Origin: Sinorhizobium alkalisoli
GTDB lineage: Bacteria; Pseudomonadota; Alphaproteobacteria; Rhizobiales; Rhizobiaceae
Assembly (NCBI RefSeq): GCF_008932245.1
Contig: NZ_CP034909.1
Coordinates: forward strand, 2,170,001 to 2,234,000
Direction of reading: 5' to 3'
DNA: 64,000 nucleotides
Each line of letters starts with the position of its first letter. The stretch's first letter is position 1. Positions 31,392 through 53,782 of the stretch are shown here, in pieces. A program made the position numbers and the translations under genes. The notes under the pieces were generated by a model that was not told where the DNA came from, did not search any database, and saw nothing but the letters and a program-made list of their open reading frames with translations.

Positions 31392-32537
31392 TCAGATACA
31401 CTCGACAAAGAGCTTCCTTGCCGATTCGAGCGTCAGTTCCACCGGATTGCCGCCGGCCGTCGGATCGACGATCGCCATTTCCGCCATTTCGTCGATGCGG
31501 TCGGTCCCGACCCCGAGGGCCGCGAGACTGTCCGGAACGCCGAGTTCCTCGCGCAGTTGCAGCACATAGTCGTAGAAGCCGTCAAAGCCGCCGGCAATGC
31601 CGAGATAGGCGGCGGCGCATGCGATCTTTTCCTCGATCGCCGGGCGGTTGAAGCGCAAGACCGGCGGCATCACGACGGCATTGGTCATGCCGTGATGGGT
31701 GTTGTAGATGGCGCCGACCGGATGGGAGAGCGAATGGATGGCGCCCAGCCCCTTCTGGAAGGCGACCGCCCCCATTGCCGCCGCGCTCATCATATGGGCG
31801 CGAGCCTCGATATCGGCGCCATCCTTGTAGGCGCGCGGCAGGTACTCCTTGACGAGCCGCATGCCTTCGAGCGCGATGCCGGCCGACATCGGGTGGTAGA
31901 ACGGTGAGGAATAGGCTTCCAGGCAGTGGGCAAAGGCATCCATGCCCGTGCCGGCCGTGATCACCTTCGGCATGCCGACCGTCAGTTCCGGATCGCAGAT
32001 CGTCACCGCCGGCAGGAATTTCGGGTGGAAGATCACCTTCTTCACATGGGTCTGCGAATTGGTGATGACGCTTGCACGGCCGACTTCCGAGCCGGTGCCA
32101 GCCGTGGTCGGCACCGCGACGATCGGCGCAATGCCCTCGACATTCGCGCGCGTCCACCAATCGCCGACATCTTCGAAATCCCAGACCGGCCGCGTCTGGC
32201 CGGCCATGAAGGCGATGCATTTGCCGAGATCGAGGCCGGAGCCGCCGCCGAAGGCGACGACGCCGTCATGGCCGCCATCCTTGAAGGCCTTGATGCCGGC
32301 CTCGAGATTGACGTCGTTCGGATTCGGATCGACCTCCGCGAAGATCGCGCGGCCGAGACCGCCGGCGTCGAGGATATCGAGTGCGCCTTGCGTGATCGCC
32401 ATCGGCGCGAGGCCGCGATCGGTGACGAGCAGCGGCTTCCTCATGCCGACGGCCTTGCAATGGTCGGCAAGCTCCTTGATCCGGCCGGCACCGAACTTGA
32501 TGGCCGTCGGATAGCTCCAGTTGGCAATGATCGTCAT
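31392..32537 (-). CDS. Iron-containing (group III) alcohol dehydrogenase
   Basis: A 381-residue Fe-ADH. The NAD-binding GGGSGLDLGKCIA segment is followed by PTTAGTGSEVGRASV and the metal-binding region AFAHCLEAYSSP to HSLSHPVGAIYNTHHGMTNAVVMP, providing the expected His ligands. It oxidises a primary alcohol to the aldehyde. Its ATG overlaps the stop of the aldehyde dehydrogenase upstream (ATGA), so the two enzymes act in sequence. Gene context (GS-like ligase, TRAP importer, amidohydrolase) suggests a gamma-glutamylated amino-alcohol substrate. Confidence 0.9.
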   Translation of the reverse strand: MTIIANWSYPTAIKFGAGRIKELADHCKAVGMRKPLLVTDRGLAPMAITQGALDILDAGGLGRAIFAEVDPNPNDVNLEAGIKAFKDGGHDGVVAFGGGSGLDLGKCIAFMAGQTRPVWDFEDVGDWWTRANVEGIAPIVAVPTTAGTGSEVGRASVITNSQTHVKKVIFHPKFLPAVTICDPELTVGMPKVITAGTGMDAFAHCLEAYSSPFYHPMSAGIALEGMRLVKEYLPRAYKDGADIEARAHMMSAAAMGAVAFQKGLGAIHSLSHPVGAIYNTHHGMTNAVVMPPVLRFNRPAIEEKIACAAAYLGIAGGFDGFYDYVLQLREELGVPDSLAALGVGTDRIDEMAEMAIVDPTAGGNPVELTLESARKLFVECI

Positions 32538-33919
32538 GCTGTCACTTTCTTCAGGTGATAGGATTTGGGACGGGTAAGATTCTGGAAGCCGATGACGGAG
32601 AGCGATCCGCCGCGGCCCGTTTCCTTGACGCCGGTCCAGCAGAGCGCCGGGTCGAGATAGTCGGCCCGGTTCATGAACACCGTGCCGGTCTCGAGCTCGC
32701 CTCCGATCCGGGCGGCACGTTCGGCGTCCTTCGTCCAGAGCGAGGCCGTCAGGCCATACCGGCAATCATTCATCAGTTCGATCGCCTGCGCATCGGTCTT
32801 CACCTTCATGATGCCGACGGCCGGGCCGAAGGTCTCCTCGCGCATGAACGCCATCGAGTGGTCGACATCGACGAGAAGCTGCGGCGCGAGATAGGCACCG
32901 CCGTCGTCCTCGGGGAAGAGCTTCGGATCGATCAGCGCCTTTGCCCCCTTCGACACCGCATCGGCGATCTGGCCGCGCACCGTCTCCGCGAAGCGCCTGT
33001 TGGCCATGGGACCGAGCGTCGTTTCCGGGGCAAGCGGGTTGCCGAGCTTGTAATTGGACACCCAGGCGACGGATTTTTCGACAAAGGCATCATAGAGCGA
33101 CTCGTGCACATAGATGCGTTCGATGCCGCAGCAGCATTGGCCGGAATTATAGGTGGCGCCGTCCATCAGCGTATCGACCGCCGCGTCGAGATCGGCATCC
33201 TCCATCACATAGCCCGGATCCTTGCCGCCGAGTTCGAGCCCGAGGCCGGTGAAGGTGCCGGCCGCCGCGCGCTCGATCGAGCGCCCGCCTTCGACCGAAC
33301 CGGTGAAATTGATGAAGTCGAAGCTCTTGGCGGCAATGAGCGCCGCCGTCGTCTCGTGGTCCAGGAACAGGTTCTGGAAGACGTCCTCCGGCACGCCGGC
33401 CTCGACAAATGCGCGCACCAGGCGCTCGCCGACGAGGATCGTCTGGCTCGCATGCTTGATCACGACCGTATTGCCGGCCATCAGCGCCGGAGCGACGGTG
33501 TTGATCGCCGTCATATAGGGGTAGTTCCAGGGCGCGATGACGAAGACGACGCCATGCGGCTCGCGTTCGATGCGCCGCTCGAAGCGCTCGCTCTCTTCGA
33601 CGACAAGCGGCTTCAAAGCGTCGCTAGCAATGGAAGCGACATAGTTGGAGCGCTCATTGAAACCCTTGAATTCGCCGCCATAGCGGACCGGCCGACCCAT
33701 CTGCCAGGCAAGTTCCGGCACCACCTCGTCGGCCATGTCGTTGAGCCTTGCGACGCCGGCAAGCACCAGCTTGACCCGTTCGTCAAGCGGCCGTTTCGCC
33801 CACGCCTTCTGTGCGAGCCGCGCTTTCGCCACCGCCTCCTTGGCACGCTCCAGCGGCATGGCCGGGCGCTCGGCATAGACCTCGCCATTGACCGGCGAAA
33901 TGCATCTGATCATCGTCAT
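32534..33919 (-). CDS. NAD(P)-dependent aldehyde dehydrogenase
   Basis: A 461-residue ALDH-superfamily enzyme. It has the oxyanion Asn132 in APWNYP, the general-base Glu229 in GLELGGKDPG and the nucleophile Cys263 in NSGQCCCG. The C-terminal EETFGPAVGIMKV motif is present. Start 33919 (MTMIRCISP) is chosen; the ATG two codons later is equally possible and the longer frame reaches into a repeat. Translationally coupled to the Fe-ADH, it would convert the aldehyde produced there to the acid. Its upstream flank is an inverted-repeat element. Confidence 0.92.
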   Translation of the reverse strand: MTMIRCISPVNGEVYAERPAMPLERAKEAVAKARLAQKAWAKRPLDERVKLVLAGVARLNDMADEVVPELAWQMGRPVRYGGEFKGFNERSNYVASIASDALKPLVVEESERFERRIEREPHGVVFVIAPWNYPYMTAINTVAPALMAGNTVVIKHASQTILVGERLVRAFVEAGVPEDVFQNLFLDHETTAALIAAKSFDFINFTGSVEGGRSIERAAAGTFTGLGLELGGKDPGYVMEDADLDAAVDTLMDGATYNSGQCCCGIERIYVHESLYDAFVEKSVAWVSNYKLGNPLAPETTLGPMANRRFAETVRGQIADAVSKGAKALIDPKLFPEDDGGAYLAPQLLVDVDHSMAFMREETFGPAVGIMKVKTDAQAIELMNDCRYGLTASLWTKDAERAARIGGELETGTVFMNRADYLDPALCWTGVKETGRGGSLSVIGFQNLTRPKSYHLKKVTA

Positions 33920-33963
33920 GATCGCCTTCCTGCTTTCCTGTTCGACTAATCTTTCGCGAGTTA

Positions 33964-34119
33964 CCCCTCCCCAACCCCTCTCCACAAGGGGGAGGGACTT
34001 AACCTGCGGCACCGCCTTTTGACAGTAACTCGGCCGTGCCGCTTGCGGCGGCGCTGAGTTGGTCACGAAGGTGACGTCAGCAAGCCCCTCACCCCTTGTG
34101 GAGAGGGGTTGGGGAGGGG
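33964..34119. repeat. MITE-like element A with 28-bp perfect terminal inverted repeats
   Basis: The left arm 33964-33991 (CCCCTCCCCAACCCCTCTCC then ACAAGGGG) and right arm 34092-34119 are perfect reverse complements. About 100 bp of unrelated sequence lies between. Related arms bound elements at 53575-53760 and 56655-56807. It is wedged between the aldehyde dehydrogenase and the glutamine-synthetase-like gene. Confidence 0.8.
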
Positions 34120-34131
34120 AAATTCAGGCAC

Positions 34132-35502
34132 CTACGCCCGCTCGAAGCCGCGCGCGACCTCCCAATCGGTGACGCGCCGGTCGTATTCCTCCTGCTCCCA
34201 GCGGGCCGCGCGCGTATAATGGTCGACGACGTCATCGCCGAATGCGGCCCTCAGCATCTCCGATCCGCTCAGCAAATCGGCCGCTTCCCTCAACGTGTGC
34301 GGAATTTCGCGCACGTCCTTGCCGTGATAGGCATCGCCGACGAAGGGCGCCTCCAGTTCCAGCTTGTTTTCGATCCCCGCGATGCCAGCCGCGAGCAAAG
34401 CGGCGAAGGCGAGATAGGGATTGAGGTCGGAACCGCCGACGCGGCACTCGATGCGGATCCCCTTGGTGCCGTCGCCGCAGAGGCGGTAACCGGCCGTGCG
34501 GTTGTCCTTGCTCCAGATCGCCTTGGTCGGCGCGAAGGTGCCGGCCATGAAGCGCTTGTAGGAATTGATGTAGGGGGCAAGAAAATAGGTAATATCGCTC
34601 GCATGAGCGAGTAACCCGGCAACATAGTGACGCATCAGCTCGGACATGCCGTAGCGGCCGTCCTTGTCGTAGAACATCGGCGTCTCGCCGTCGGCACTCC
34701 ACAGCGACTGGTGAATATGCGACGAGGAGCCGGCGGCCGAGTAGTTCCACTTGGCAAGGAAGGTGATCGCCTTGCCACGCTGCCAGGCGATCTCCTTGCA
34801 ACCGTTCTTGATGATTGTATGGCGGTCGGCCATCGTTAGCGCATCCGCATAGCGGACGTTGATCTCTTCCTGGCCGGCGGACGCCTCCCCCTTGGAGTTT
34901 TCCACCGGAATGCCAGCGCCCTGCAGGCCGTTGCGGATCGCCCGCATCACGTCCTCTTCCTTGGTCGTCTGGAAAATGTGGTAGTCCTCGTTGTAGCCGC
35001 TGACGAGCTGCAGGTCGCGGTATCCGGAGAGCCGCGCATCGTCATAGGATTGGTCGAAGAGGAAGAATTCGAGCTCGCTCGCCATGAAGGCCTTGAGGCC
35101 CATCCCTTCGAGCCGCGCAACCTGTTTCTTCAGGATGGCGCGCGGCGAATGCGCCACCTCCGTATGGGTGTCGTGGTCGAGCACGTCGCAGATGACGAGC
35201 GCCGTTCCTTCGAGCCAGGGAATGCGCCGCAGCGTCGCAAGGTCAGGCTTCATCGTATAGTCGCCATAGCCCTTTTCCCAGCTCGTCGCCCTGTAGCCCT
35301 GGACCGTCTCCATCTCCAGGTCGGTTGCGAGCAGATAGTTGCAGCTATGCGTTTCCTTCCAGGCGCTCTCGACGAAATACTGGGCATGAAAGCGCTTGCC
35401 CATCAGGCGGCCCTGCATATCGACCTGGCAGGCGAGCACCGTGTCGATGCGGCCCTCGGCCACGTCTTTCTTCAAATCATCGAATGTATAGTTCGCGCTC
35501 AT
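34132..35502 (-). CDS. Glutamine-synthetase-like gamma-glutamylamine ligase
   Basis: A 456-residue GS-superfamily ATP-dependent ligase. Metal and substrate motifs are visible: ASELEFFLFD, GEASAGQEEINVRYAD, SSSHIHQSLW, the TFAPTKAIWSKDNRTAGYR segment, and IECRVGGSDLNPYLAFAA. No adenylylation-site Tyr motif of GlnA type I is seen. Location with ADH, ALDH, an amidohydrolase and a TRAP importer, not with glnB, argues for a PuuA/GlnA4-like enzyme making a gamma-glutamyl amide from glutamate and an amine. Start is ATG 35502; the N-terminal 17-residue extension is rejected. Confidence 0.85.
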   Translation of the reverse strand: MSANYTFDDLKKDVAEGRIDTVLACQVDMQGRLMGKRFHAQYFVESAWKETHSCNYLLATDLEMETVQGYRATSWEKGYGDYTMKPDLATLRRIPWLEGTALVICDVLDHDTHTEVAHSPRAILKKQVARLEGMGLKAFMASELEFFLFDQSYDDARLSGYRDLQLVSGYNEDYHIFQTTKEEDVMRAIRNGLQGAGIPVENSKGEASAGQEEINVRYADALTMADRHTIIKNGCKEIAWQRGKAITFLAKWNYSAAGSSSHIHQSLWSADGETPMFYDKDGRYGMSELMRHYVAGLLAHASDITYFLAPYINSYKRFMAGTFAPTKAIWSKDNRTAGYRLCGDGTKGIRIECRVGGSDLNPYLAFAALLAAGIAGIENKLELEAPFVGDAYHGKDVREIPHTLREAADLLSGSEMLRAAFGDDVVDHYTRAARWEQEEYDRRVTDWEVARGFERA

Positions 35503-35600
35503 GGAGAAGTCCTGGTTCCGGTGTCGATCCGGTTTGCGTTGGCCCGTCGGCATCCGGGACCGCGGTGCCGCCCCGGATGCGAAGTTGGTGACGATCGTGA

Positions 35601-36647
35601 TCAGCTGTAGCGGTAGGGCGGACCTGCCTTCTCCATCACGTCACGATATTTCTTGAGGATCTCGACGACCTTGACCGCGCGCGGGCTGGTGGCCGCGATC
35701 TCATCCCAGAACTTCAGCGCTTCCTGTTCCACGGTCTTCCATTCCTCGTCCGGAATGGTCGTCAGTTCGAGCTTGGTGCCTTCGGCGCGCAACTGCGCCT
35801 CGCCGCCCCAGTACCAGTGCTGGCGATAATAGTGCGAGGAGTCGATGCAGAGACGGAACAGCGTCTTGAGATGCTCGGGAACCTCGTTCCAGCGGGCGGA
35901 GTTTGCGAAGAACGAACCGCACCAGGCGCCGGAGATGTTGTTGGTGAGGAAATACTTGGTCACGTCCGCCCAACCGACCGTGTAGTCCTCGGTGATGCCC
36001 GACCAGGCGAGACCATCGAGTTCGCCGGTCTGCATGGCGACCTGAACGTCTTCCCAAGGCAACGTCACCGGCACGACCCCGAAGCGCGTCAGGAATTTGC
36101 CGGCCGTCGGGAAGGTGAAGATGCGCAGGCCCTTCAGATCCTCGAGCGACTTGACCGGCTTGACGGTCGCGAAGTTGCAGGGGTCCCAGGACCCGGCAGA
36201 TAACCAGGTGACACCCTCGACCTCGCCATAGGCCTCGGCCCAGATTTCGTTGAGGCCGTATTGGTGGAAGAGCGTCGGCACGTCGAGGCTGTAGCGCGAG
36301 GCAAAGGGGAAATAGCCGCCGAATACCTTGATGTCGACCGGCGAGGCCATGGAATCGTCGTCGCTCTGGACGGCATCGATCGTGCCCGCCTGCATGGCGC
36401 GGAAGAGTTCGCCCGTCGGCACCAGCTGGTCGGAGGTATAGAGATCGATCTGCATCTCGCCATTGGCCGCCTTGTTGAAGGCGTCGATCGCCGGCTTGAT
36501 GACGTGCTCGGCGAGCGCCGGGCCGGCATAGGTCTGCAGGCGCCAGGTGATCTTGCCCTGCGCGCGCACGGCCGGCGCCGCCAGCGCCGTGGTGCCGGCG
36601 GCGGCAGCGAGCCCCGCCTTCTTCAGAAAATCGCGTCTGTTGGTCAT
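35601..36647 (-). CDS. TRAP transporter substrate-binding protein (DctP family)
   Basis: A 348-residue periplasmic receptor with a Tat-type signal (NRRDFLKKAGLAAAAGTTALA). The DctP fold is recognised from FRAMQAGTIDAVQ and LPWEDVQVAMQTGELDGLAW. At the position where most DctP proteins have a carboxylate-clamping Arg (LKGLKIRVP-like), this one reads LKGLRIFTFP, with Phe177. That points to a ligand without a clamped carboxylate, such as a cationic amino alcohol. It is encoded directly downstream of the two membrane subunits. Confidence 0.9.
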   Translation of the reverse strand: MTNRRDFLKKAGLAAAAGTTALAAPAVRAQGKITWRLQTYAGPALAEHVIKPAIDAFNKAANGEMQIDLYTSDQLVPTGELFRAMQAGTIDAVQSDDDSMASPVDIKVFGGYFPFASRYSLDVPTLFHQYGLNEIWAEAYGEVEGVTWLSAGSWDPCNFATVKPVKSLEDLKGLRIFTFPTAGKFLTRFGVVPVTLPWEDVQVAMQTGELDGLAWSGITEDYTVGWADVTKYFLTNNISGAWCGSFFANSARWNEVPEHLKTLFRLCIDSSHYYRQHWYWGGEAQLRAEGTKLELTTIPDEEWKTVEQEALKFWDEIAATSPRAVKVVEILKKYRDVMEKAGPPYRYS

Positions 36648-36753
36648 CTTTCTGTTTCCCTCTTTCCTGGTTCAGTTGCACTTCTTCTATTTATTGGAGC
36701 CCTGCACCAGCGGAGAGGGCTCAATGTCTTGCGGCGCAATGCGCCGCCTCCCG

Positions 36754-38079
36754 TCAGCCCCTCACATAGACGTGCTGCGGCAACCAGAGTGCGATCTCCG
36801 GAAAGGCCGTCACGATCGCCAGCCCCACCATCATGACAAGGACGAAGGGCAACACCGATTTGTAGATATCCGCCAGGGTGATCTCGGGTGGCGCCATGGC
36901 CCGCATCAGGAACAGGTTGTAACCGAATGGCGGGGTCATGTAGGCGATCTGGCAGGTGATCGTGTAGAGCACCCCGTACCAGATGAGATCGAATCCGAGG
37001 CTGCCGACGAGCGGTATGTAGAGCGGCGCCACGATGACCAGCATCGCCGTGTCGTCGAGGAAGGTGCCCATGAGGATATAGGAGATCTGCATCAGGATCA
37101 GCACCTCCCAGGGACCAAGGCCCCATTTCTCCAGGAACAGGTACTCGATTGCCTTGACCGCACCGAGACCGTCGAAGACGGCGCCGAAGCACAGCGCCGC
37201 CAGGATGATCCACATGAACATGCAGGAAATCCCGAGCGTCTGCTCCACCGTCCGGTCGAACACACGCCAGGTCAGCCGTCCTTTGACCCAGGCCGCCACG
37301 AGCGCGGACATCGCACCGACAGCCGAGCTTTCGACGAGGCTGGTGATGCCCAGGACGAAGAGGCCCATCATCAGGAAGAAGATCATGAAGGGCAGGATGC
37401 CGGCTCTGAGCAATTTGAGCTTCTCGGCGAGCGGAAGATCTCGTTCCTCCTTCGGCAGCGCCGGCCCGAGATGCGGCTGGATCTTGCAGCGGATGACGAC
37501 ATAGAGCGAAAACAGAAACGCCAGAAGCAGGCCAGGGAAGACACCGGCGAGCCAAAGCTGTCCGACCGGCTGGCGGGCGATCATGCCATAGAGCACCAGC
37601 ACCACGCTCGGCGGCACCAGGATGCCGAGTGAGCTGCCCGCCTGGATGACGCCGGAGACCATGGTCTTGTCATAGCCGCGCCTCAACAGTTCCGGCAGCG
37701 CGATCGTCGCTCCGATCGCCATGCCGGCGACGCTGAGACCGTTCATGGCGGAGATGATGACCATGAGCCCGATGGTTCCGAGCGCCAGCCCCCCGCGCAA
37801 TCCGCCCATCCAGACATGGAACATCTTGTAGAGGTCCTCGGCGATGCCGGACTCCGACAGCATGTAGCCCATGAAGATGAAGAGCGGCAGGGTCAGAAGA
37901 GGATACCACTTCATCAGCTTCATCGAGGCGGCAAAGGCCATTTCGAAGCCGCCGTCGCCCCACAGGAATGCGGCGGCGACCACGCCGACGAAACCGATCG
38001 CGGCGAAGACGCGCTGACCGGTCAGCATCGTCATCATCATCGACGAGAACATCGTGAAGGCGATCATTTCGTAGCTCAT
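36754..38079 (-). CDS. TRAP transporter large membrane subunit (DctM)
   Basis: A 441-residue ion-coupled transporter subunit with about 11-12 membrane helices. Characteristic DctM segments are visible: PLFIFMGYMLSESGIAEDLY, AIGATIALPELLRRGYDK, SGVIQAGSSLGILVPPSVVL and PPFGYNLFLMRAM. The start overlaps the DctQ stop by four bases. It drives sodium-dependent uptake of the DctP ligand. Confidence 0.93.
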   Translation of the reverse strand: MSYEMIAFTMFSSMMMTMLTGQRVFAAIGFVGVVAAAFLWGDGGFEMAFAASMKLMKWYPLLTLPLFIFMGYMLSESGIAEDLYKMFHVWMGGLRGGLALGTIGLMVIISAMNGLSVAGMAIGATIALPELLRRGYDKTMVSGVIQAGSSLGILVPPSVVLVLYGMIARQPVGQLWLAGVFPGLLLAFLFSLYVVIRCKIQPHLGPALPKEERDLPLAEKLKLLRAGILPFMIFFLMMGLFVLGITSLVESSAVGAMSALVAAWVKGRLTWRVFDRTVEQTLGISCMFMWIILAALCFGAVFDGLGAVKAIEYLFLEKWGLGPWEVLILMQISYILMGTFLDDTAMLVIVAPLYIPLVGSLGFDLIWYGVLYTITCQIAYMTPPFGYNLFLMRAMAPPEITLADIYKSVLPFVLVMMVGLAIVTAFPEIALWLPQHVYVRG

Positions 38080-38585
38080 GCGAGCGGCCTCCCGATGGCG
38101 TGGGCAAGGTCTTTGATGAAGATGGATGTCGCCTGGAGGAAGGTCAGCACGATGCCGATCGTCATGATGACCTTGATCGGCGCCATATAGGGCGCCCAGG
38201 CCGAATAACTGGTCTCGCCATATTTCAACGCATAGGCGGTACTGGAAACGCCGCCGTAAAGCAGGAACGCCAGATAGACGAGCAGCAAGATGATGGTGAC
38301 GGCATCGACTATGGCGCGTATGCGCAGCGTCCAGCGGCCATAGAGCAGGTCCATGCGGACGTGGCTGTCGAGCTGCAGCGAATAGGCCCCGCCCAGAAGA
38401 TAATAGGCAGCCATGACGAACTGGGCCATTTCAAGGGTCCAGAGCGATGGCAACAGCCACGCCTTCGAAATCGATGAATAGAGCAGGATGCCCATCATCG
38501 CGAAAATCAGATACATGGTGGCCCTGCCGACGCGCCGATTGAATCCATCGACGACTCGGACATAGGTCTTCAGATATTCAGGCAT
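38076..38585 (-). CDS. TRAP transporter small membrane subunit (DctQ)
   Basis: A 169-residue protein with four membrane helices. Conserved DctQ features include the FNRRVGRATMYLIFAMMG opening, AYYLLGGAYSLQLDSHVRMDLLYGRW and the final WAPYMAPIKVIMTIGIVL helix. It is the first TRAP gene of the minus-strand block and is coupled to dctM by ATGA. Confidence 0.92.
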   Translation of the reverse strand: MPEYLKTYVRVVDGFNRRVGRATMYLIFAMMGILLYSSISKAWLLPSLWTLEMAQFVMAAYYLLGGAYSLQLDSHVRMDLLYGRWTLRIRAIVDAVTIILLLVYLAFLLYGGVSSTAYALKYGETSYSAWAPYMAPIKVIMTIGIVLTFLQATSIFIKDLAHAIGRPLA

Positions 38586-38726
38586 GGCGGCAACCCCGCC
38601 GGGCGCATGCGTTATCCCCTCGAGGAAATGCGCCTCCCCGTGCTGTCCATCCAGGCATCGGCTGTCATTCTCCTGTTCAATAGATCACCGGTCATCACCG
38701 CGAGCGCTGCCGCTCCCCAGGGGCTT

Positions 38727-39512
38727 TTATTGTGCGGATAAGGCAGCCGCGCTCTTGGCGAGCAGCCCTTCCAGATAATCGGCCATGCCCCTTTGGCCGA
38801 TCTCGTCGCGGATGAGATCGTTCCTGATCTCGATCATCACATTGGGCAGTCCGTAACGGACGCCGTATTCTATCAGACTGTGCGTCACCCCGTCCTGAGG
38901 ACCGTATGGCTCGTTGCGGCGGACGTCATAAGTGCCATCCGCGGCCGCAATCGCCAGCATACGGTCGGCGAGCCGGCTGTCGGCATCATGGAGAATGCCA
39001 AGCTGCACGGCGCGCGGCCTGCCAAAATAGACCGGGGTGAAGCTGTGCATAGTGACGAGCACGGGCCTCCGCCCGCCCGCCTTGCGCTCGACCACGAAGC
39101 GCGACACGGCATCGTGAAAGGGCCGGTAGAGCTCGTCGACCCGCGCCCGGCGCTCGGCCCCGGACATCGTCCTGTTGCCCGGCACCTCGTAGATCTCGCT
39201 GGCGACTGGCATTGCGGCCTCCGATTCCGGCGGCCGGTTGCAGTCATAGGCAAGACGGGAGAACCGCTGATGGATCAGCGCGCCGTCAAGTTTTGCGGCG
39301 AGCAGATCGGCAACCGCAAGCGCGCCCGGATCCCAGGCGATATGGCTCTTGAGAACGTCCTCGGAGAGCCCGAGCGTCCCCAGTCGCTGCGGCAGGCGGC
39401 GCGACGCGTGCTCGCACAGGAAGACGAATTCTCCCTTTGCCTCCGCATTCGTGACGGTGACCGGATTGCCTTCGGCGTCAGTCAAAAGCCTTGTCACAAC
39501 CGGCGCCCCCAT
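38727..39512 (-). CDS. N-formylglutamate-amidohydrolase-family enzyme
   Basis: A 261-residue zinc amidohydrolase of the HutG-type N-formylglutamate deformylase family. Motifs: VFLCEHASRRLP, HIAWDPGA, AYDCNRPP, a central VTMHSFTP and IEIRNDLI. There are no hut genes here; it leads a block of TRAP, GS-like, ALDH and Fe-ADH genes. By analogy with PuuD it is a good candidate to hydrolyse the gamma-glutamyl amide at the end of that pathway, since the family acts on N-acyl glutamates. Start ATG 39512 was chosen because upstream sequence is the divergent promoter region. Confidence 0.85.
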   Translation of the reverse strand: MGAPVVTRLLTDAEGNPVTVTNAEAKGEFVFLCEHASRRLPQRLGTLGLSEDVLKSHIAWDPGALAVADLLAAKLDGALIHQRFSRLAYDCNRPPESEAAMPVASEIYEVPGNRTMSGAERRARVDELYRPFHDAVSRFVVERKAGGRRPVLVTMHSFTPVYFGRPRAVQLGILHDADSRLADRMLAIAAADGTYDVRRNEPYGPQDGVTHSLIEYGVRYGLPNVMIEIRNDLIRDEIGQRGMADYLEGLLAKSAAALSAQ

Positions 39513-39673
39513 CAAACAGCCCAGCCGACGATAATCGTGAAAAGAATTCTTCACAGAAAAACGACTGTCAACCAGAATCTGAAACAATCTCTTCAAAAAT
39601 CCGATTGACTCCTGTCGCGACGGCGATGTTAAATTCACCTCAAGCTGGCAGAGACCGGCTGAGGGGCACGGCA

Positions 39674-40552
39674 TTGAACGATACTGCGGCATCCATGACG
39701 GTGTCGGATGTGATCAACGCACATTTCACGGCGCTGACGCGCGCCGAGAAGCGCTTGGCGGAGACACTTCTAGACAACTATCCCGTGTCCGGACTCGGCT
39801 CGATCACCACGGTCGCCGAGAACGCGGGGGTCTCTTCGCCGACAGTTGTCCGCATGGTGCAGAAGCTCGGCTTCCGCGGTTTTCCCGATTTCCAGGCGAG
39901 ACTGCACCAGGAACTGGAGGCGACGATCTCCAATCCGATCGCCAAGCACGATCGCTGGGCGGCGAGCGCACCGGGGACGCATATCCTCAACCGTTTCGCC
40001 GACGCGGTCATGGGCAATATGCGCCAGACGCTTTCGCAGATCGAACCCGCCGAATTCGACGACGCCGCGGCACTCGTCGCCGATCGCAAGCGCCATGTCT
40101 ATCTCGTCGGCGGGCGCATCACCCGCTCGATGGCCGACTATCTCTTCACCCATCTTCAGGTCATACGCACCGGCGTCACGCAGATCGCCCACAACCCGAG
40201 TTCCTGGCCCCACTATGTGCTGGACATGCAGCAGGGCGATGTCCTGATCCTTTTCGATATCCGCCGCTATGAGCAGGAAATGGAGACGCTCGCCCGCTTT
40301 GCCCGCGAACGGCGCGTCGAAATCGTGCTCTTCACCGACCAGTGGGGCTCGCCTGTGGCCAAGTCCGCGTCCAAGGTTTTCCGCGCGCGGATCGAGGTAC
40401 CCTCGGCCTGGGACAGCTCGGTCCTTCTCCTGTTCCTCGTCGAGGCGCTGATCGAGGCCGTGCAGAGTTCAAACTGGGAGGAAACCCGCGACCGGATGAA
40501 GACCCTCGAGGGCCTGTTCGACTCGACCCGCATTTTCCGCAAGCCGGTCTAG
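39674..40552 (+). CDS. RpiR-family transcriptional regulator
   Basis: A 292-residue regulator with an N-terminal HTH_6 domain (ITTVAENAGVSSPTVVRMVQKLG) and a C-terminal SIS domain (HVYLVGGRITRSMADYLFTHL; later ILFDIRRYEQEM). RpiR proteins sense phosphosugars or related metabolites. A TTG at 39674 is preferred as start because GAGGGG lies 7 bp upstream; ATG 39695 is the alternative. It is divergent from the amidohydrolase/TRAP block (160 bp apart) and upstream of an ABC importer, so it could control either. Confidence 0.88.
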   Translation: MNDTAASMTVSDVINAHFTALTRAEKRLAETLLDNYPVSGLGSITTVAENAGVSSPTVVRMVQKLGFRGFPDFQARLHQELEATISNPIAKHDRWAASAPGTHILNRFADAVMGNMRQTLSQIEPAEFDDAAALVADRKRHVYLVGGRITRSMADYLFTHLQVIRTGVTQIAHNPSSWPHYVLDMQQGDVLILFDIRRYEQEMETLARFARERRVEIVLFTDQWGSPVAKSASKVFRARIEVPSAWDSSVLLLFLVEALIEAVQSSNWEETRDRMKTLEGLFDSTRIFRKPV

Positions 40553-40736: not shown

Positions 40737-41843
40737 GTGATTTCAAAGACTCAACGCTTGCTCTCGCTTTCGACCGCCGTGCTTCTGGCGACGACGGCCA
40801 TCGCCGCCGCCGAGCCCAGCGGGGAGCTCATCGCCGAAGCCAAGAAGGAAGGCATGCTCACCACCATCGCTCTGCCCCACGACTGGTGCGGCTATGGCGA
40901 CGTCATTGCCTCCTTCAAGGCCAAGTATCCGGAAATCCAGGTCAACGAACTGAACCCGGATGCCGGCTCGGCCGACGAAGTCGAAGCCGTCAAGGCCAAC
41001 AAGGACAACAAGGGCCCGCAGGCGCCCGACGTTGTCGACGTCGGCCTCGCTTTCGGTCCGCAAATGAAGGCCGAAGGCCTGCTGCAGCCCTACAAGGTCT
41101 CCACCTGGGACGAGATTCCGGACTCCGTCAAGGATGCCGAGGGCTACTGGTACGGCGACTATTACGGCGTGATGTCCTTCCTCATCAACAAGGACCTCGT
41201 TACCAATTCGCCGAAGGACTGGGCCGATCTGCTGAAGCCGGAATATTCCGGCCAGGTCGCCCTCGCCGGCGATCCGCGCGCTTCGAACCAGGCGATCCTC
41301 GGCGTACTCGCCGCAGGCCTCGCCAAGGGCGCCAAGGCCGGGAAGGAAGCCGGCGAAGCCGGTCTCGACTTTTTCGCCGAGTTGAACAAGGCCGGCAATT
41401 TCGTCCCGGTCATCGGCAAGTCGGGCACGCTTGCCCAGGGCTCGACCCCGATCATAGTTGCGTGGGACTACAACGCGCTCGGTTGGGCCAAGACGCTGGA
41501 GGGCAACCCGCCGACCGAAGTCGTCGTTCCGGAAAGCGGCGTTCTCGCCGGCGTCTACGTTCAAGGCATCTCGGCCTATGCACCGCATCCGAATGCCGCC
41601 AAGCTGTGGATGGAGCACCTCTATTCCGACGAAGGTCAGCTCGGCTGGCTGAAGGGCTTCTGCCACCCGGCACGCTTCAACGCGATGGTCAAGGACGGAA
41701 AGGTTCCGAAGGAACTGATCGACGCCCTCCCGCCGGCGGATGCGTATGAAAAGGCTTACTTCCCGACGCTGGAAGAGGTCGACGCGAACAAGGCTGCCGT
41801 GACCGGCGGCTGGGATTCCGTCGTCGGCGCAAACGTCCAGTAA
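40737..41843 (+). CDS. ABC transporter substrate-binding protein (family 1, iron/thiamine/phosphonate-like)
   Basis: A 368-residue periplasmic binding protein with a Sec signal peptide (LLSLSTAVLLATTAIAAA). It belongs to SBP family 1, the group of AfuA/FbpA, ThiB/PotD and aminoethylphosphonate receptors: ELIAEAKKEGMLTTIA, DVVDVGLAFGPQMKAEG, NALGWAKTLEG and YAPHPNAAKLWMEHL. The start is GTG 40737 after ATAAGGAGA. It heads an ABC operon with two permeases and an ATPase. The ligand cannot be decided from sequence; no Tyr pair diagnostic of ferric-binding FbpA is evident. Confidence 0.85.
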   Translation: MISKTQRLLSLSTAVLLATTAIAAAEPSGELIAEAKKEGMLTTIALPHDWCGYGDVIASFKAKYPEIQVNELNPDAGSADEVEAVKANKDNKGPQAPDVVDVGLAFGPQMKAEGLLQPYKVSTWDEIPDSVKDAEGYWYGDYYGVMSFLINKDLVTNSPKDWADLLKPEYSGQVALAGDPRASNQAILGVLAAGLAKGAKAGKEAGEAGLDFFAELNKAGNFVPVIGKSGTLAQGSTPIIVAWDYNALGWAKTLEGNPPTEVVVPESGVLAGVYVQGISAYAPHPNAAKLWMEHLYSDEGQLGWLKGFCHPARFNAMVKDGKVPKELIDALPPADAYEKAYFPTLEEVDANKAAVTGGWDSVVGANVQ

Positions 41844-41860
41844 GCGTTTCCGCAATCATT

Positions 41861-41941
41861 CCGTCCCGGCCGGTTTCCCGTCCGGGACGGATGCGACAAT
41901 CATCGGAACTTTAAAGGAACGGCCGCGTCTGCGACGCGGCC
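41861..41941 (+). promoter_or_regulatory. Two intercistronic hairpins between binding protein and permease
   Basis: CCGTCCCGG/CCGGGACGG (41861-41869 with 41882-41890) and GGCCGCGTC-TGC-GACGCGGCC (41921-41941) are perfect 9-bp stems. Such structures after a binding-protein gene usually stabilise its mRNA or attenuate the downstream permease genes, raising receptor levels over the membrane components. Confidence 0.5.
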
Positions 41942-41957
41942 CCGTAGGGCGCAAGGA

Positions 41958-42839
41958 ATGTCAACTGCTCACATCAGCGCCAGGTCGCCGGCGCGTCGTC
42001 TTCCGCTTCACTGGCTGGGCATCCTGCCCTTTGCCGCTTTTGTGACGCTTTTTCTCATTCTTCCGACGATGAAGATCGTGGTCGGCGCCTTTCAGACACC
42101 GGACGGCAGCTTCACGCTCGATAATATCCAAGGTCTTTTCACCCCTTCGATCCTCGCAGCCTATTGGATCTCCATTAAAATCAGCGTCGCTTCGGCGCTC
42201 CTCGGTTGCCTGGCCGGCTTTGCCATCTCCGCAGCCGTCGTGTTCGGCGGATTGCCGAGAGGTATCCGCGGGCCGCTACTGACTTTTTCCGGCGTCGCGT
42301 CCAACTTTGCGGGCGTACCGCTGGCCTTCGCCTTTCTCGCAACGCTCGGGCCGGTCGGCATCGTCAACGTTTTCCTGCGCTCGGAGCTTGGCGTGGATCT
42401 GCGGGCGCTCGGCTTCAACATTCTGTCCTTCTGGGGCCTGACCATTACATATCTCTTCTTCCAGATCCCGCTGATGATCCTCATCATCACGCCCGCACTC
42501 GACGGACTGAAGCGCGAGTGGCGCGAAGCGGCATCGATCCTCGGCGCCACCGGGTTTCAATACTGGCGGATGGTCGCCTTTCCGATCCTGCTCCCCTCTA
42601 TCCTTGGCACCCTGGCGCTTCTCTTCGCCAATGCCTTCGGCGCCGTCGCAACCGCCATTGCATTAACCGGCTCGTCGCTCTCGATCGTGCCCATCCTGCT
42701 CTTCGCCCAGATCCGCGGCGACGTGCTCGGCAATCCGCACCTCGGCTACGCGCTTGCCTTCGGCATGATCGTGGTTACGGGTGTCGCCAACGCAATCTAC
42801 ATCTGGCTTCGCGCCCGCAGCGAGAGGTGGCTGAAATGA
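41958..42839 (+). CDS. ABC transporter permease (PotB-type)
   Basis: A 293-residue inner-membrane permease with about six helices. The ATPase-docking EAA loop is REAASILGATGFQYWRMVAFPILLPSILG. Pairs with the following permease; the stop overlaps the next ATG (ATGA). Member of the SBP-family-1 importer beginning at 40737. Confidence 0.9.
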   Translation: MSTAHISARSPARRLPLHWLGILPFAAFVTLFLILPTMKIVVGAFQTPDGSFTLDNIQGLFTPSILAAYWISIKISVASALLGCLAGFAISAAVVFGGLPRGIRGPLLTFSGVASNFAGVPLAFAFLATLGPVGIVNVFLRSELGVDLRALGFNILSFWGLTITYLFFQIPLMILIITPALDGLKREWREAASILGATGFQYWRMVAFPILLPSILGTLALLFANAFGAVATAIALTGSSLSIVPILLFAQIRGDVLGNPHLGYALAFGMIVVTGVANAIYIWLRARSERWLK

Positions 42840-43618
42840 AGAAGATCTGGGCCTGGGGCGCCCTCTTTTTCGGCATCCTCTACTTCACGCTTCCGCTCGT
42901 GGGGATGACCAACTTCTCGCTGAAGATGCGGCGCGGAGAATATTCCTTCGAGGCCTATGCGAGAGTGTTCGGCGATCCGCGCTTCCAGGAGACCTTCACC
43001 TATTCCGTGACGCAGGCGCTCTTCACCATCGTCTTCGGTGTGCTGCTCGTCGTGCCGACGGCCTACTGGATCCGCCTCAAGCTGCCGGGCCTGCGTCCCT
43101 ATGTCGAATTCGTGACGTTGCTGCCATTGGTCATTCCGGCAATCGTCATCGTCTTCGGCTATATCCGGCTCTACAACACATCGAGCTGGCTGCCCCTGAC
43201 AGGCTCCGCTTTCGGCACCAACATACTGCTGATGTTCGGCTATGCCACGCTGGCGCTGCCATACATGTACCGTGCGGTGGACACCGGCCTCAGGACAATC
43301 GACGTGGCCACGCTTACCGAAGCCGCCCAGAGTCTGGGCGCCGGTTGGACCACGATCCTGGCGCGGATCATACTGCCCAACGTGCTTGTTGCCGTGCTCT
43401 CCGGCGCCTTCCTCACCTTCGCCATCGTCATCGGCGAGTTCACCATGGCAGCGCTGCTGAACAGGCCGGCTTTCGGCCCCTATATGCAGCTTCTCGGCGC
43501 CAACCGCGCCTATGAACCGGCGGCGCTCGCCGTCATCGCATTCGGAATCACCTGGGGCTGCCTCGGCCTCATCCAGCTCGTCTCGCGCTTCCAGAAAAGC
43601 GCGCCTCCCAAGGCCTGA
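42836..43618 (+). CDS. ABC transporter permease (PotC-type)
   Basis: A 260-residue permease with six helices and the EAA loop TEAAQSLGAGWTTILARIILPNVL. The start ATG overlaps the preceding gene's stop. A longer frame starting at 42206 is an artefact that runs through the first permease in another frame. It ends 11 bp before the ATPase gene. Confidence 0.9.
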   Translation: MKKIWAWGALFFGILYFTLPLVGMTNFSLKMRRGEYSFEAYARVFGDPRFQETFTYSVTQALFTIVFGVLLVVPTAYWIRLKLPGLRPYVEFVTLLPLVIPAIVIVFGYIRLYNTSSWLPLTGSAFGTNILLMFGYATLALPYMYRAVDTGLRTIDVATLTEAAQSLGAGWTTILARIILPNVLVAVLSGAFLTFAIVIGEFTMAALLNRPAFGPYMQLLGANRAYEPAALAVIAFGITWGCLGLIQLVSRFQKSAPPKA

Positions 43619-43629
43619 GGACCGTTCGC

Positions 43630-44691
43630 ATGAGTTTCCTGTCACTGACCAACATCAAGAAATCCTTCGGCCCGGTCCAGGTCGTGCACGATTTCAACAT
43701 GGGCATCGAGAAAGGCGAGTTCGTTTCTTTTCTCGGGCCTTCCGGCTGCGGCAAGACGACCATCCTCCGGATGATCGCCGGCTTCGAGACGCCCTCCGAC
43801 GGGAGGATCACGATAGACGGCAAGGACCAGGGTTCGCTCAAGCCCAACCAGCGCAATATCGGCATGGTGTTCCAGGCCTATGCGCTGTTCCCCAACATGA
43901 ACGTGCACGACAATGTCGCCTTCGGCCTCAAGGTGGCCGGCGCTTCCAGGTCGGAAATCGATACTCGGGTGAAGCAGATGCTCGGGCTCATCAAGCTCGA
44001 CCACCTGGCGGACCGTTTCCCCTATCAGATGTCCGGCGGTCAGCAGCAGCGTGTGGCGCTGGCCCGCGCCCTTGCGGTGAAGCCGCAGGTGCTGCTGCTC
44101 GACGAACCTCTCTCGGCGCTCGATGCGAAGATCCGCGTCTCGCTACGCGAAGAAATCCGGCAGATCCAGCAGCAGCTCGGCATTACCACCGTGTTCGTCA
44201 CGCATGACCAGGAGGAGGCGCTGTCGATCTCCGATCGCATCGTCGTCATGAATGCCGGGCGCGCCGACCAGATCGGCACGCCTTTCGAGATCTACAACAC
44301 GCCGGCGACCCGATTCGTCGCCTCCTTCGTCGGCACGCTCAACATCATCGAGGCCAAGGTGGCCGACCCGGCCACCGGTGCCGTCATGGTGGGCGACCAA
44401 CCGGTTACTCTGGCGGAGCCAATTGCCAACCTGAAGGGTGGCGACACGATCTCGCTTGCCTTGCGGCCGGAGGCAGGCTCCATAGCCGAGAGCGCCAGCG
44501 GCGATACATCGCTTGTCGGCGAGGTCGAAGCGACGAACTTCCTCGGCTCGGTCATCCGCACCAGGCTGCGCGTGGGCAATGACCTGATCTCTTTCGACAT
44601 GTTTAACAATCCCGGCGTCGTGCCGCCGTCTTACGGCGAGAGCGTCAAACTGCGTTTCGCCGCCAAGGACCTGCTGGTGATCCGCGAATAG
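43630..44691 (+). CDS. ABC transporter ATP-binding protein
   Basis: A 353-residue ATPase: Walker A GPSGCGKTT (36-44), Q-loop MVFQAYALFP, signature MSGGQQQRVALARAL, Walker B LLLDEPLSALD and switch FVTHDQEEALS. A C-terminal TOBE domain (about 270-350) is typical of the polyamine/iron/AEP importer subclass. It closes the four-gene importer operon and is followed by a GC-rich stem. Confidence 0.93.
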   Translation: MSFLSLTNIKKSFGPVQVVHDFNMGIEKGEFVSFLGPSGCGKTTILRMIAGFETPSDGRITIDGKDQGSLKPNQRNIGMVFQAYALFPNMNVHDNVAFGLKVAGASRSEIDTRVKQMLGLIKLDHLADRFPYQMSGGQQQRVALARALAVKPQVLLLDEPLSALDAKIRVSLREEIRQIQQQLGITTVFVTHDQEEALSISDRIVVMNAGRADQIGTPFEIYNTPATRFVASFVGTLNIIEAKVADPATGAVMVGDQPVTLAEPIANLKGGDTISLALRPEAGSIAESASGDTSLVGEVEATNFLGSVIRTRLRVGNDLISFDMFNNPGVVPPSYGESVKLRFAAKDLLVIRE

Positions 44692-46655: not shown

Positions 46656-47735
46656 GTGGGATCCGCTTCGACGAACGATATTGAATTCCGTTCGGTCGCC
46701 AAACGCTATGGCAGCGTGACGGCCGTGTCCGGCATCGACCTAGCGGTTCCCAAGGGCGCCTTCGTCGCCTTGCTCGGCCCGTCCGGCTGCGGCAAGACCA
46801 CATGCCTGAGGATGATCGGCGGTTTCGAGCAGCCGAGCGAGGGGACCGTTCATATCGGTGGCGAAGCGGTGAACGGCGTGCCTGCCTATCGCCGGCCGGT
46901 CAACATGGTATTCCAGCACTATGCGCTGTTTCCCCATCTCGACGTCGCGCAGAACGTCGCCTACGGGCTGAAGCAGATGCGCCCGCGCATCGCCGCCGCC
47001 GAAATAGGCCGGCGGACACAGGAAGCGCTGGAAATGGTGCGCCTCGGCGGCTTTGCGAAGCGCCGCATCCACGAAATGTCGGGCGGACAGCAGCAGCGAG
47101 TCGCACTCGCGCGCGCCATTGTCAACAAGCCTAAGGTGCTGCTTCTCGACGAACCGCTCGCCGCCCTCGACAAGAAGCTGCGCACCGCCATGCAGATCGA
47201 GTTGCAGAGCCTGCAGCGCGAGCTCGGCATCACATTTGTGCTCGTGACGCACGACCAGGAGGAGGCGCTGTCGATGAGCGACCTCGTCTGCGTCATGAAC
47301 GCCGGCCGGATCATTCAGGTCGGCACGCCCGAGGAGATCTATGACCGGCCGGCGACGCTCTTCGTCGCCGATTTTGTCGGCAAGACCAACCGCATCGCCG
47401 CCACGATCGAGCCCGGCGCGGGTCCGATCCGGCTCGCGAACGGCCTGGGATTGACAAAACCCGCGCGGGTGAACGGTACCGTCGGCGCCGCCATGGTGGC
47501 GCTGCGCCCGGAGGCGATCCGTCTCGTGCGCGACGGTGCCTCGACGCTCGAGGGCACCGTCACCCATCGCATCTTTCTCGGTTCTTCGGTGGAATATTCC
47601 GTCGAGGTCGACGGCCTCGGCGATTTTCTGGTGACCGCCGACCGCCGAGCCCTCGTCGAAAGCGAGCTCGCCGAACCGGGAGAAAGGATCGGTCTCAGCT
47701 TCGATGCGAACGCAATGCATATCTTCCCGGCCTGA
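46656..47735 (+). CDS. Polyamine-type ABC transporter ATP-binding protein (PotA-like)
   Basis: A 359-residue ATPase: GPSGCGKTT Walker A, MVFQHYALFPH Q-loop, MSGGQQQRVALARAI signature, LLLDEPLAALD Walker B, VTHDQEEALSMSD switch, then a C-terminal TOBE_2 domain with MVALRPEAIRL. The start is GTG 46656 after CAGGGAA. First gene of an operon with a PotD/F-like receptor, two permeases and an SDR. Confidence 0.92.
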   Translation: MGSASTNDIEFRSVAKRYGSVTAVSGIDLAVPKGAFVALLGPSGCGKTTCLRMIGGFEQPSEGTVHIGGEAVNGVPAYRRPVNMVFQHYALFPHLDVAQNVAYGLKQMRPRIAAAEIGRRTQEALEMVRLGGFAKRRIHEMSGGQQQRVALARAIVNKPKVLLLDEPLAALDKKLRTAMQIELQSLQRELGITFVLVTHDQEEALSMSDLVCVMNAGRIIQVGTPEEIYDRPATLFVADFVGKTNRIAATIEPGAGPIRLANGLGLTKPARVNGTVGAAMVALRPEAIRLVRDGASTLEGTVTHRIFLGSSVEYSVEVDGLGDFLVTADRRALVESELAEPGERIGLSFDANAMHIFPA

Positions 47736-47785
47736 CCGGCCGGTCTGCTGCCATAAATGCCTGTCAAGAACAAGGGAACAGCGTC

Positions 47786-48946
47786 ATGACCAAGTGGTAC
47801 AGAGAAAATGCCCCAATCACTGCAGTGAAGCTCGCCGACGAACTGATGCGCCTGAAGCGCGGCTCGGTCTCACGGCGGCATTTCCTCGGCGTAACCGGCC
47901 TCGGCCTCGCCGCCGCTGTCCTGGCACGCCAGCCCGGCCTCTTCAATTCAACCGTTTTCGCCGGCGATCTCGGCAGCCAGATGTCGATCGCCACCTGGCC
48001 GAACTATCACGATCCCGCCACCTTCGAAGCCTTCACCGCTGCCACCGGCGTCGCCGTCGAGGTCAATGTCTTCGGTTCGAATGAAGAGATGCTCGCGAAG
48101 CTGCAGGCGGGCGGCACCGGCTGGGACCTGTTCGTTCCCACCAATTATACGATCTCGACCTATGTCAAGCTCGGCCTGATCGACGAACTGGACATGGGAC
48201 AATTGCCGAACTTCGATGCGTCGACCGAGAATGCGCGCTTCACCCATGAGGGCATGGTCGACGGCAGGACCTATGCGGTTCCCAAGAACTGGGGAACGAC
48301 CGGCATTGCGGTGAACACGAGCAAGATCAAAGCGCCGGTATCCAGCTGGAAGGACTTCTTCGAGGTGGCGATGTCGGAGGCCGACGGCCGCACAATGGTG
48401 CATGATTATCAGTTGACCACCATCGGCAATGCGCTCGTCTCGCTCGGCTACTCCTTCAACTCGATCAAGCCGGAGGAGTTGGCCAAGGCTGAGGAACTGT
48501 TGCTCCGCGTCAAGCCGCATCTCTACGCGATCAACAGCGACTACCAGCCGGCGATGCGCGCGACCGATGCCTGGATGACCATGTGCTGGACCAATGACGG
48601 CGCCCAGCTCAACCGCGACATGCCGGAGATCGAGTACGTGCTCGGCAAGGACGGCGGCGAGATCTGGACGGACTTCTATGCCATCCCGAAAAGCGCCGCC
48701 AACAAGCCGGCCGGCTATGCGCTGCTCAATTACCTGATGGCGCCGGAAAACGCAGTCAAGGAGCACATCGCCAACGGCGCGCCGACCACCGATAGCCGCG
48801 TGCTGAAGCTGCTGCCGGAGGAGGTCACCTCGAACAAGATCGTCTATCCGGACGAGGCGTCGCTGACGCCGCTCGAGTTCGGCGCCGCCGTGACCTTGAC
48901 CGACCCTGGTCGCGCCGAGCTGATGGCCCGCTTCAAGTCCGCCTGA
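47786..48946 (+). CDS. Polyamine-type ABC transporter substrate-binding protein (PotD/PotF-like)
   Basis: A 386-residue periplasmic receptor with a Tat signal (SVSRRHFLGVTGLGLAAAVL). The SBP_bac_8 fold is recognised by MSIATWPNYHDPATFEAF, VEVNVFGSNEEMLAKLQAGG and DLFVPTNYTISTYVKLGLID, close to PotD/PotF. The polyamine-site acidic and aromatic residues are only partly evident, so the ligand may be another cation such as a betaine. Gene order ATPase-receptor-permease-permease is typical. Confidence 0.88.
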   Translation: MTKWYRENAPITAVKLADELMRLKRGSVSRRHFLGVTGLGLAAAVLARQPGLFNSTVFAGDLGSQMSIATWPNYHDPATFEAFTAATGVAVEVNVFGSNEEMLAKLQAGGTGWDLFVPTNYTISTYVKLGLIDELDMGQLPNFDASTENARFTHEGMVDGRTYAVPKNWGTTGIAVNTSKIKAPVSSWKDFFEVAMSEADGRTMVHDYQLTTIGNALVSLGYSFNSIKPEELAKAEELLLRVKPHLYAINSDYQPAMRATDAWMTMCWTNDGAQLNRDMPEIEYVLGKDGGEIWTDFYAIPKSAANKPAGYALLNYLMAPENAVKEHIANGAPTTDSRVLKLLPEEVTSNKIVYPDEASLTPLEFGAAVTLTDPGRAELMARFKSA

Positions 48947-49010
48947 CCCGTCACAGACAGCCTTTTCCCTCTCATCCGGCACGGCAATCCGAAATCTGGC
49001 CGAAGTCTGG

Positions 49011-49913
49011 ATGGGGGGGACAAGTTCAACAGCACCCGGCCGATCCCTCATGCGTGCAGCAAACAGGAAGAGGAATCTCGTAACGGCGGCGCTCATTGCG
49101 CCGGCAGCCGGCTGGCTCTCCGTCTTCCTCGTCCTGCCGTTCATCGCTATGCTCGTCTTCGCCTTTGGCGAACGGGCGCCCGAGGGCGGCTATCAGCCGG
49201 CCTTCACCTTCGCGCAGTTCGCCAATCTGCCGACGCGCGCCACCGCCTTCTGGAACACGCTGATGCTGGCGCCGGCCGGGGCCTTCCTCTGCCTGCTGGT
49301 TGCCTACCCAACCGCGTATTATCTCGCGGTGAAGGCAAATCCGCGCTACCGGCTCATCCTCGTCTCGCTCGTCGTGGTGCCGTTCTGGACGAGCCTTCTC
49401 GTGCGCACCTATGCGTGGATGTACATCCTTGGATCGCGCGGAATCCCCAATCTTCTGTCGATGATCGGCATTGAGGACGTGCGCCTGCTCAACACCCCGG
49501 GCGCCGTCCTGCTCGGCATCGTCTATGGCTACCTACCGCTGATGATCATGCCGATCTACGTGAGCCTCGAGAAGCTCGATCGCAGGCTCCTGGAGGCATC
49601 GGCCGATCTCGGGGCGAAACCCGTCTCCACCTTTTTCGGCGTCACGCTGCCACTCTCCCTACCCGGCGTCATGACAGGGGTCGCGCTTGTCACCATCCTG
49701 CTCCTCGGCGAGTATCTGATCCCGCAACTCCTCGGCGGCGGCAAGGTCTTCTTCATCGGCAACGCGCTCGTCGATCTCTTCCTGCAATCGCGCAACTGGC
49801 CCTTCGGCTCGGCGATCGCCGTTACGCTCGTCGCCGTAGTTGTCGTGGTGCTGATGGCGGCGATGCGGATCGCCTGGAAAATAGCCGGAACGCGGCAGGT
49901 GGATCTCGTCTGA
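49011..49913 (+). CDS. Polyamine-type ABC transporter permease (PotB-like)
   Basis: A 300-residue permease with six predicted helices. The EAA loop is LEASADLGAKPVSTFFGVTLPLSLPGV, and the N-terminal helix begins LVTAALIAPAAGWLSVFLVLPF. ATG 49011 gives a short hydrophilic leader; ATG 49050 (MRAANRKR) is a credible alternative start. The stop overlaps the next ATG (TGATG). Confidence 0.9.
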   Translation: MGGTSSTAPGRSLMRAANRKRNLVTAALIAPAAGWLSVFLVLPFIAMLVFAFGERAPEGGYQPAFTFAQFANLPTRATAFWNTLMLAPAGAFLCLLVAYPTAYYLAVKANPRYRLILVSLVVVPFWTSLLVRTYAWMYILGSRGIPNLLSMIGIEDVRLLNTPGAVLLGIVYGYLPLMIMPIYVSLEKLDRRLLEASADLGAKPVSTFFGVTLPLSLPGVMTGVALVTILLLGEYLIPQLLGGGKVFFIGNALVDLFLQSRNWPFGSAIAVTLVAVVVVVLMAAMRIAWKIAGTRQVDLV

Positions 49914-50731: not shown

Positions 50732-50735
50732 AACG

Positions 50736-51497: not shown

Positions 51498-51586
51498 GTT
51501 TGAATCGGCGCCTCAGCACGACTCGGCAAGCCGCTGTTCCGACTCGGACAAATGCCGTCGTTGAACCGGGATATGAGATCATTGAA

Positions 51587-52558: not shown

Positions 52559-52665
52559 TTGCGAAACTCCCCGCTCGTGCCGAGAATGTATAGGATCCTT
52601 CCGTTTATGGAAAGCAGCGGCGACCTTTCTGGCTCGTAATGGGCTCAACGAAAAGGGAGACAGCT

Positions 52666-53568: not shown

Positions 53569-53574
53569 GAACAC

Positions 53575-53760
53575 CCCTCCCCGCCCTCCCACAAGGGGGA
53601 GGGCTTACTGCGCGGTACTGCATGGGCCTGAAAGCTAGCGTCGGCACCTGTTGAGGCGTTGGGACGGAACAGCGGCAAGCACAGCGCAGCGAGGGACGAA
53701 AAGGACCTGGAGCCACCCATCCCTCCCCTTGTGGGAGGGTGGCCCGAAGGGCCGGAAGGG
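53575..53760. repeat. MITE-like element B with imperfect terminal inverted repeats
   Basis: The left arm CCCTCCCACAAGGGGGAGGG (about 53586-53605) and the right arm ACCCATCCCTCCCCTTGTGG then GAGGGT (about 53716-53741) are imperfect reverse complements, sharing the CCTCCCACAAGGGG core with elements A and C. It occupies almost the whole gap between the BKACE gene and the dehydrogenase fusion. Confidence 0.6.
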
Positions 53761-53782
53761 TTACGACGCAAATGGAGAGGGC

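Follow-up and report, generated by a model that had tools for sequence, protein, structure and literature searches.

What does a compact minus-strand gene block of Sinorhizobium alkalisoli do, in which a TRAP importer stands together with a ligase resembling glutamine synthetase (GS), an iron-type alcohol dehydrogenase (Fe-ADH), an aldehyde dehydrogenase (ALDH) and an enzyme of the N-formylglutamate-amidohydrolase (FGase) family? We analysed this block within a window of 64 kb, by which we mean the whole stretch from position 2,170,001 to 2,234,000 of contig NZ_CP034909.1, in a genome of 6.13 Mb and three contigs. A preliminary description of the same DNA had proposed that the block imports ethanolamine or a related amino alcohol, protects its amine with glutamate, oxidizes the alcohol and releases glutamate and an amino acid. 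Judging from sequence comparisons, we consider it very probable that the block is an ethanolamine gamma-glutamylation operon. The preliminary reading was essentially right, but the pathway has been published before; our analysis makes small additions: importer swaps among relatives, a candidate operator, and a fused EutB-EutC with a Tat-like leader encoded elsewhere in the genome.

The composition of the block was confirmed by its open frames, by Pfam and by its conservation. The frames of all seven minus-strand genes are unbroken between 31392, where the Fe-ADH gene ends, and 39512, where the ATG of the hydrolase gene begins a protein of 261 aa. The genes are transcribed in the order hydrolase, DctQ, DctM, TRAP solute-binding protein (SBP), GS-like ligase, ALDH and Fe-ADH, and every Pfam match (FGase, DctQ, DctM, DctP, Gln-synt_C, Aldedh and Fe-ADH) exceeds its gathering cut-off. 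The four enzymes and the importer lie in one block, with a gene for an RpiR-family regulator adjacent to it (Table 1). ATGA overlaps at two junctions, ALDH/Fe-ADH and DctQ/DctM, indicate an operon-like arrangement.

To describe conservation we used the best 80 loci by ligase match, all from Rhizobiaceae, of at least 592 confirmed stretches, and counted a gene as present, unless stated otherwise, when the match covered over half of the query length. The closest of these loci by ligase belongs to Ensifer sp. LCM 4579 (97%). The ligase was present in all 80 relatives, the ALDH in 79, the Fe-ADH in 78 (at 80.6–97.4% identity), the hydrolase in 78, and the RpiR regulator and the SBP of a neighbouring ABC importer in 77 each. 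In 75 of the 80, the hydrolase, ligase, ALDH and Fe-ADH genes follow the order of the window and are accompanied by the divergent RpiR gene and the ABC SBP gene, which argues that the grouping did not arise by chance. In four of the five exceptions (L019, L044, L055 and L065) the contig is short or the locus sits at its edge; in the fifth (L060), RpiR matched over a short stretch only. Of 61 genomes sampled from the family, 41 carry a relative of the ligase. Rhizobia may therefore commonly draw nitrogen from ethanolamine, this count covering the ligase rather than the whole operon. In a sample of the class, the ligase was detected at E 1e-120 or better in 12 of 115 genomes, S. alkalisoli included.

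Ethanolamine, the substrate named in the preliminary description, is favoured because the TRAP SBP matches the ethanolamine-bound structure 4UAB, with 70.5% identity (E 1e-159); the next match in the PDB reached only 63.4 bits. According to the available text of its source, 4UAB is Csal_0678 with bound ethanolamine, in which Glu220 holds both the amine and the hydroxyl group (PMC12410723). The stretch SGITEDYT is identical in the two proteins, and if the numbering is shifted by three, as our own count suggests, Glu220 of Csal_0678 appears to be kept within it. The window protein would, on this comparison, be an orthologue of Csal_0678 that retains the ethanolamine site, of which one residue, Glu220, was compared. 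Among the 120 SBP homologues listed, of 4117 found, 117 carry GITED and 115 carry the stretch R-[IVL]-FTFP. Phe occupies the position at which four other aligned TRAP chains (2HZK, 4YZZ, 4YIC and 2ZZV) carry Arg, and the part of the literature available describes Csal_0678 as being without the carboxylate-binding Arg of other TRAP SBPs (PMC4646407). The window SBP also passed a Tat leader model above its cut-off.

In the proposed pathway, the TRAP importer would take up ethanolamine, and the GS-like ligase would use ATP to join the ethanolamine amine to the gamma-carboxyl group of glutamate. The Fe-ADH and the ALDH would then oxidize the alcohol, yielding gamma-glutamylglycine, from which the FGase-family hydrolase would release glycine and glutamate, the latter being recycled. 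The divergent RpiR protein probably controls the block through paired TGAA-N8-TTCA sites. We infer each of these steps in S. alkalisoli, and likewise the operator.

A novel pathway with ethanolamine as sole nitrogen source was reportedly announced in the abstract of Vetting 2015. Two of the window proteins have counterparts in other hosts, the SBP in Chromohalobacter salexigens (Csal_0678) and the hydrolase in A. tumefaciens, with whose Atu2144 (structure 2ODF) it shares 59.7% identity. The sequence of import, gamma-glutamylation, two oxidations and release of glycine and glutamate has already been assigned in print to an operon that agrees in gene content and gene order, MED193_10021-10056 of Phaeobacter sp., given in the available text as RpiR, GGAH, EtoV, EtoW, EtoX, ETAGA, GAADDH and GETADH (PMC10132767). 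All eight genes, their locus-tag order and the regulator family match the window; the operon differs in belonging to another organism, and the ABC cassette that lies beyond RpiR in the window is not in the Phaeobacter gene list as available. Phaeobacter EtoX binds ethanolamine with a Kd of 7.9 uM, and five proteins of the operon are raised on phosphoethanolamine, according to the same text (PMC10132767). The Phaeobacter assignment rests on Vetting 2015 (Biochemistry 54:909), which, as conveyed by citing papers, dealt with the pathway of C. salexigens and A. tumefaciens C58 (PMC10132767).

The same chemistry has been proposed for GlnA4 (SCO1613) of S. coelicolor, with ethanolamine gamma-glutamylation and two proposed oxidations. 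The preliminary description had singled out the hydrolase fold as a contrast to this route; that contrast must be withdrawn, since the available text of the GlnA4 paper proposes a formylglutamate-amidohydrolase-family enzyme, SCO1615, for the last step (PMC6529630). What does distinguish the window block is its TRAP importer, which does not feature in the description of the GlnA4 route as available. Between them, the Phaeobacter, Vetting and GlnA4 accounts already cover the chemistry, the family of the hydrolase and the order of the genes, and the novelty implied in the preliminary description is not supported.

Could the block instead be a polyamine (Puu-like) or plain GS locus, beside which the oxidoreductases and the TRAP genes lie by chance? 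The ligase is a member of the GS catalytic-domain family, with matches to the NCBIfam models for GlnA and gamma-glutamylputrescine synthetase, and the PuuA-PuuD pathway follows the same gamma-glutamyl protection logic, with putrescine as its substrate and a final hydrolase, PuuD, whose fold differs from that of the window hydrolase. The matches, however, lie far below the equivalog cut-offs (262.3 of 429.15 bits for GlnA and 203.4 of 650 for gamma-glutamylputrescine synthetase), and the cut-off for type III GS was likewise not reached. The ligase shares 65.6% identity with 5DM3, which we take to be Csal_0679, and 65.3% with 11ZS, and the other GS structures matched scored at most 184.9 bits; Csal0679 is itself listed as a putative GS in the portion of the literature available. 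In its flap the ligase reads GTFAP against GYEAP in the more distant GS chains printed with it, Phe thereby replacing the Glu that we presume to be the catalytic flap residue of GS. With the NCBIfam cut-offs unmet and the flap Glu missing, identification of the ligase as GlnA or PuuA was rejected. The genome holds four further GS-like matches, and these, together with the ordered gene set kept among relatives, make a Puu-like or plain GS locus scarcely credible.

A closer competitor retains the chemistry and replaces the main substrate with another small amino alcohol, such as 2-amino-1-propanol or serinol, yielding an amino acid other than glycine. The sequence of 4UAB is also that of PDB entry 4XF5, whose ligand we take to be 2-amino-1-propanol, and the importers in the slot between the hydrolase and ligase genes differ among the relatives: ten of the 80 have the TRAP type, 65 an APC permease and four an APC permease resembling ethanolamine permeases, the one remaining locus being L019, whose 4.9-kb contig left the slot unassigned. 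The two APC types are distant from each other (20–26% identity), and one scanned member of the 65-locus type reached no model cut-off. In the genome of S. alkalisoli itself, no match to the ethanolamine-permease model TIGR00908 rose above the cut-off, the best scoring 185.2 bits. Against a different amino alcohol stand the closeness of the SBP to an ethanolamine-bound protein with its site stretch kept, the Phaeobacter affinity and phosphoethanolamine response given above (PMC10132767), and the ethanolamine-permease-like importer that fills the slot in four relatives. We regard this substitution of the substrate as improbable, and ethanolamine remains our preferred substrate for the operon.

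The preliminary description had also remarked that no EutBC lyase was present. This is correct for the block, none of whose genes is a EutB or EutC, but not for the genome. At C1:2012286-2014631, about 187 kb away, its one EutB match and its one EutC match share an open frame of 804 aa, entered in the protein database with 782 aa. The frame is adjoined by an NMT1_3 SBP, presumably of the TAXI type, and a long DctM-family permease. Among the 120 homologues listed (S. alkalisoli included), of 4691 found, 109 have a twin-Arg leader (RR-x-hydrophobic within 60 residues) and all 120 have the stretch ETGQGSE. The leader suggests that the fused protein is possibly exported. Close homologues of the fused EutB-EutC (L083:7284-9698) come from Sinorhizobium, Ensifer, Rhizobium and others. 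It is tempting to speculate that ethanolamine is handled twice, by the cytoplasmic operon under RpiR and its paired operators and by a Tat-exported EutB-EutC that would act outside the cytoplasm beside a TAXI-type TRAP importer, with the ABC cassette feeding an ethanolamine-yielding compound into the operon route, but we consider this elaboration unlikely.

Within the family sample of 61 genomes, EutB occurred in 13. Twelve of these carry a copy of the non-fused type, recognized by its score (at least 661 bits, compared with about 474 for fused copies). The ligase, present in 41 of the 61 genomes overall, accompanied only one of these 12, G171 (Fisher p 4e-6, uncorrected for phylogeny), a pattern that we count in favour of the ethanolamine reading. 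The fused form occurred in two of the 61, S. alkalisoli and G171, both of which have the ligase.

Several observations weigh against the ethanolamine interpretation or narrow its reach. The apparent family-level avoidance between EutB and the ligase carries the lack of phylogenetic correction just stated, and no avoidance was seen at the class level, where 114 other genomes included 11 with the ligase, nine with EutB and one with both (p 1.0); avoidance at that level was accordingly rejected. The ethanolamine-permease match in the importer slot falls under the curated TIGR00908 cut-off, as the one scanned locus, L070, scored 363.8 bits against 381.75; the other three loci of this type are 89–90% identical to L070. 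The ALDH and the Fe-ADH lack a close characterized relative in NCBIfam or the PDB, their PDB relatives being general ones only, and none of the best 25 of 44 NCBIfam matches to the ALDH reached its own cut-off. According to the available text, Phaeobacter EtoX is also raised by phosphate starvation alone (PMC10132767). Finally, the complete set is not fixed outside the family: among 11 other-family stretches, one of them only 8.4 kb long, the Fe-ADH was found in nine, the ALDH in five (with a match at 28% in a sixth), the hydrolase in two and RpiR in two, and the ABC SBP in none of the 11. The importers in these stretches comprised the window TRAP type in three, an ethanolamine-permease-like protein in one and weak TRAP large-subunit matches (25–30%) in two.

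The gap between the hydrolase and RpiR genes contains the only two occurrences of TGAA-N8-TTCA in the window, at 39538 and 39580. Shuffles of the window gave a mean of 0.42 occurrences, and two were reached in six of 100 shuffles. Across the 6.13-Mb genome, no second pair of such sites separated by 15 to 40 bases was found, and a control pattern gave zero matches. At least one site was present in this gap in 76 of 78 relatives, compared with 0.375 loci expected from mononucleotide shuffling, and two sites in 25 of the 78, with a spacing of 42 bp in 24 of those 25; it should be noted that the rows counted are related to each other and hence not independent. The two loci without a site in the gap, among the 78 examined, were L008 and L031. 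Outside the gap, ten sites were found in 1.64 Mb. In all 78 relatives with any RpiR match, the RpiR and hydrolase genes are encoded on opposite strands. We propose the paired TGAA-N8-TTCA sites as a candidate operator, to which RpiR would bind. The pattern was sought and not found in L102 and L104, the two other-family stretches that keep RpiR, two loci being too few to judge the reach of the site. The part of the literature on RpiR and ethanolamine that was available yielded no description of an operator, which is not proof of absence. The start of RpiR is itself uncertain, with 39626 and 39695 among the options.

Table 1. Features of the gene block and its surroundings, in window coordinates
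Feature	Position	Strand	Basis
Fe-ADH; proposed gamma-glutamylethanolamide dehydrogenase (GETADH)	31392..32537	-	Pfam Fe-ADH/ADH_Fe_C; 381 aa
ALDH; proposed gamma-glutamyl-aminoacetaldehyde dehydrogenase (GAADDH)	32534..33919	-	Pfam Aldedh E 1e-120
GS-like ligase; proposed ethanolamine gamma-glutamylase (ETAGA)	34132..35553	-	Pfam Gln-synt_C; 5DM3/11ZS likeness
TRAP solute-binding protein EtoX, Tat-type leader	35601..36647	-	Pfam DctP; 4UAB likeness
TRAP large permease EtoW, DctM family	36754..38079	-	Pfam DctM
TRAP small permease EtoV, DctQ family	38076..38585	-	Pfam DctQ
FGase-family enzyme; proposed gamma-glutamylglycine amidohydrolase (GGAH)	38727..39512	-	Pfam FGase E 2.5e-43
Candidate RpiR operator 1, TGAA-N8-TTCA	39538..39553	.	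Pattern search
Candidate RpiR operator 2, 42 bp from operator 1	39580..39595	.	Pattern search
RpiR-family regulator, divergent	39695..40552	+	Pfam HTH_6 + SIS
ABC importer (SBP_bac_6 SBP, two permeases, ATPase), downstream of RpiR	40737..44691	+	Pfam

The hydrolase is strongly conserved, 75 of its 261 positions being near-invariant (98% or more) across 79 sequences. For the ABC importer beside RpiR, the best solved relative of the SBP is 5T1P (171.8 bits), and weaker matches include iron- and aminoethylphosphonate-binding proteins; a clue to the ligand was sought among these structure matches, and neither 5T1P nor the weak matches gave a usable one. Within Sinorhizobium and Ensifer, the second permease of this cassette falls into two identity classes (about 71–73% and over 90%) that do not track the identity of the regulator, which suggests exchange of the cassette. 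Further along the window, the region 46656-55273 encodes another ABC importer (ATPase, SBP_bac_8 SBP and two permeases) with an SDR, a BKACE enzyme and a fused 3HCDH-thioesterase, a cluster that we take to resemble carnitine-type catabolic clusters.

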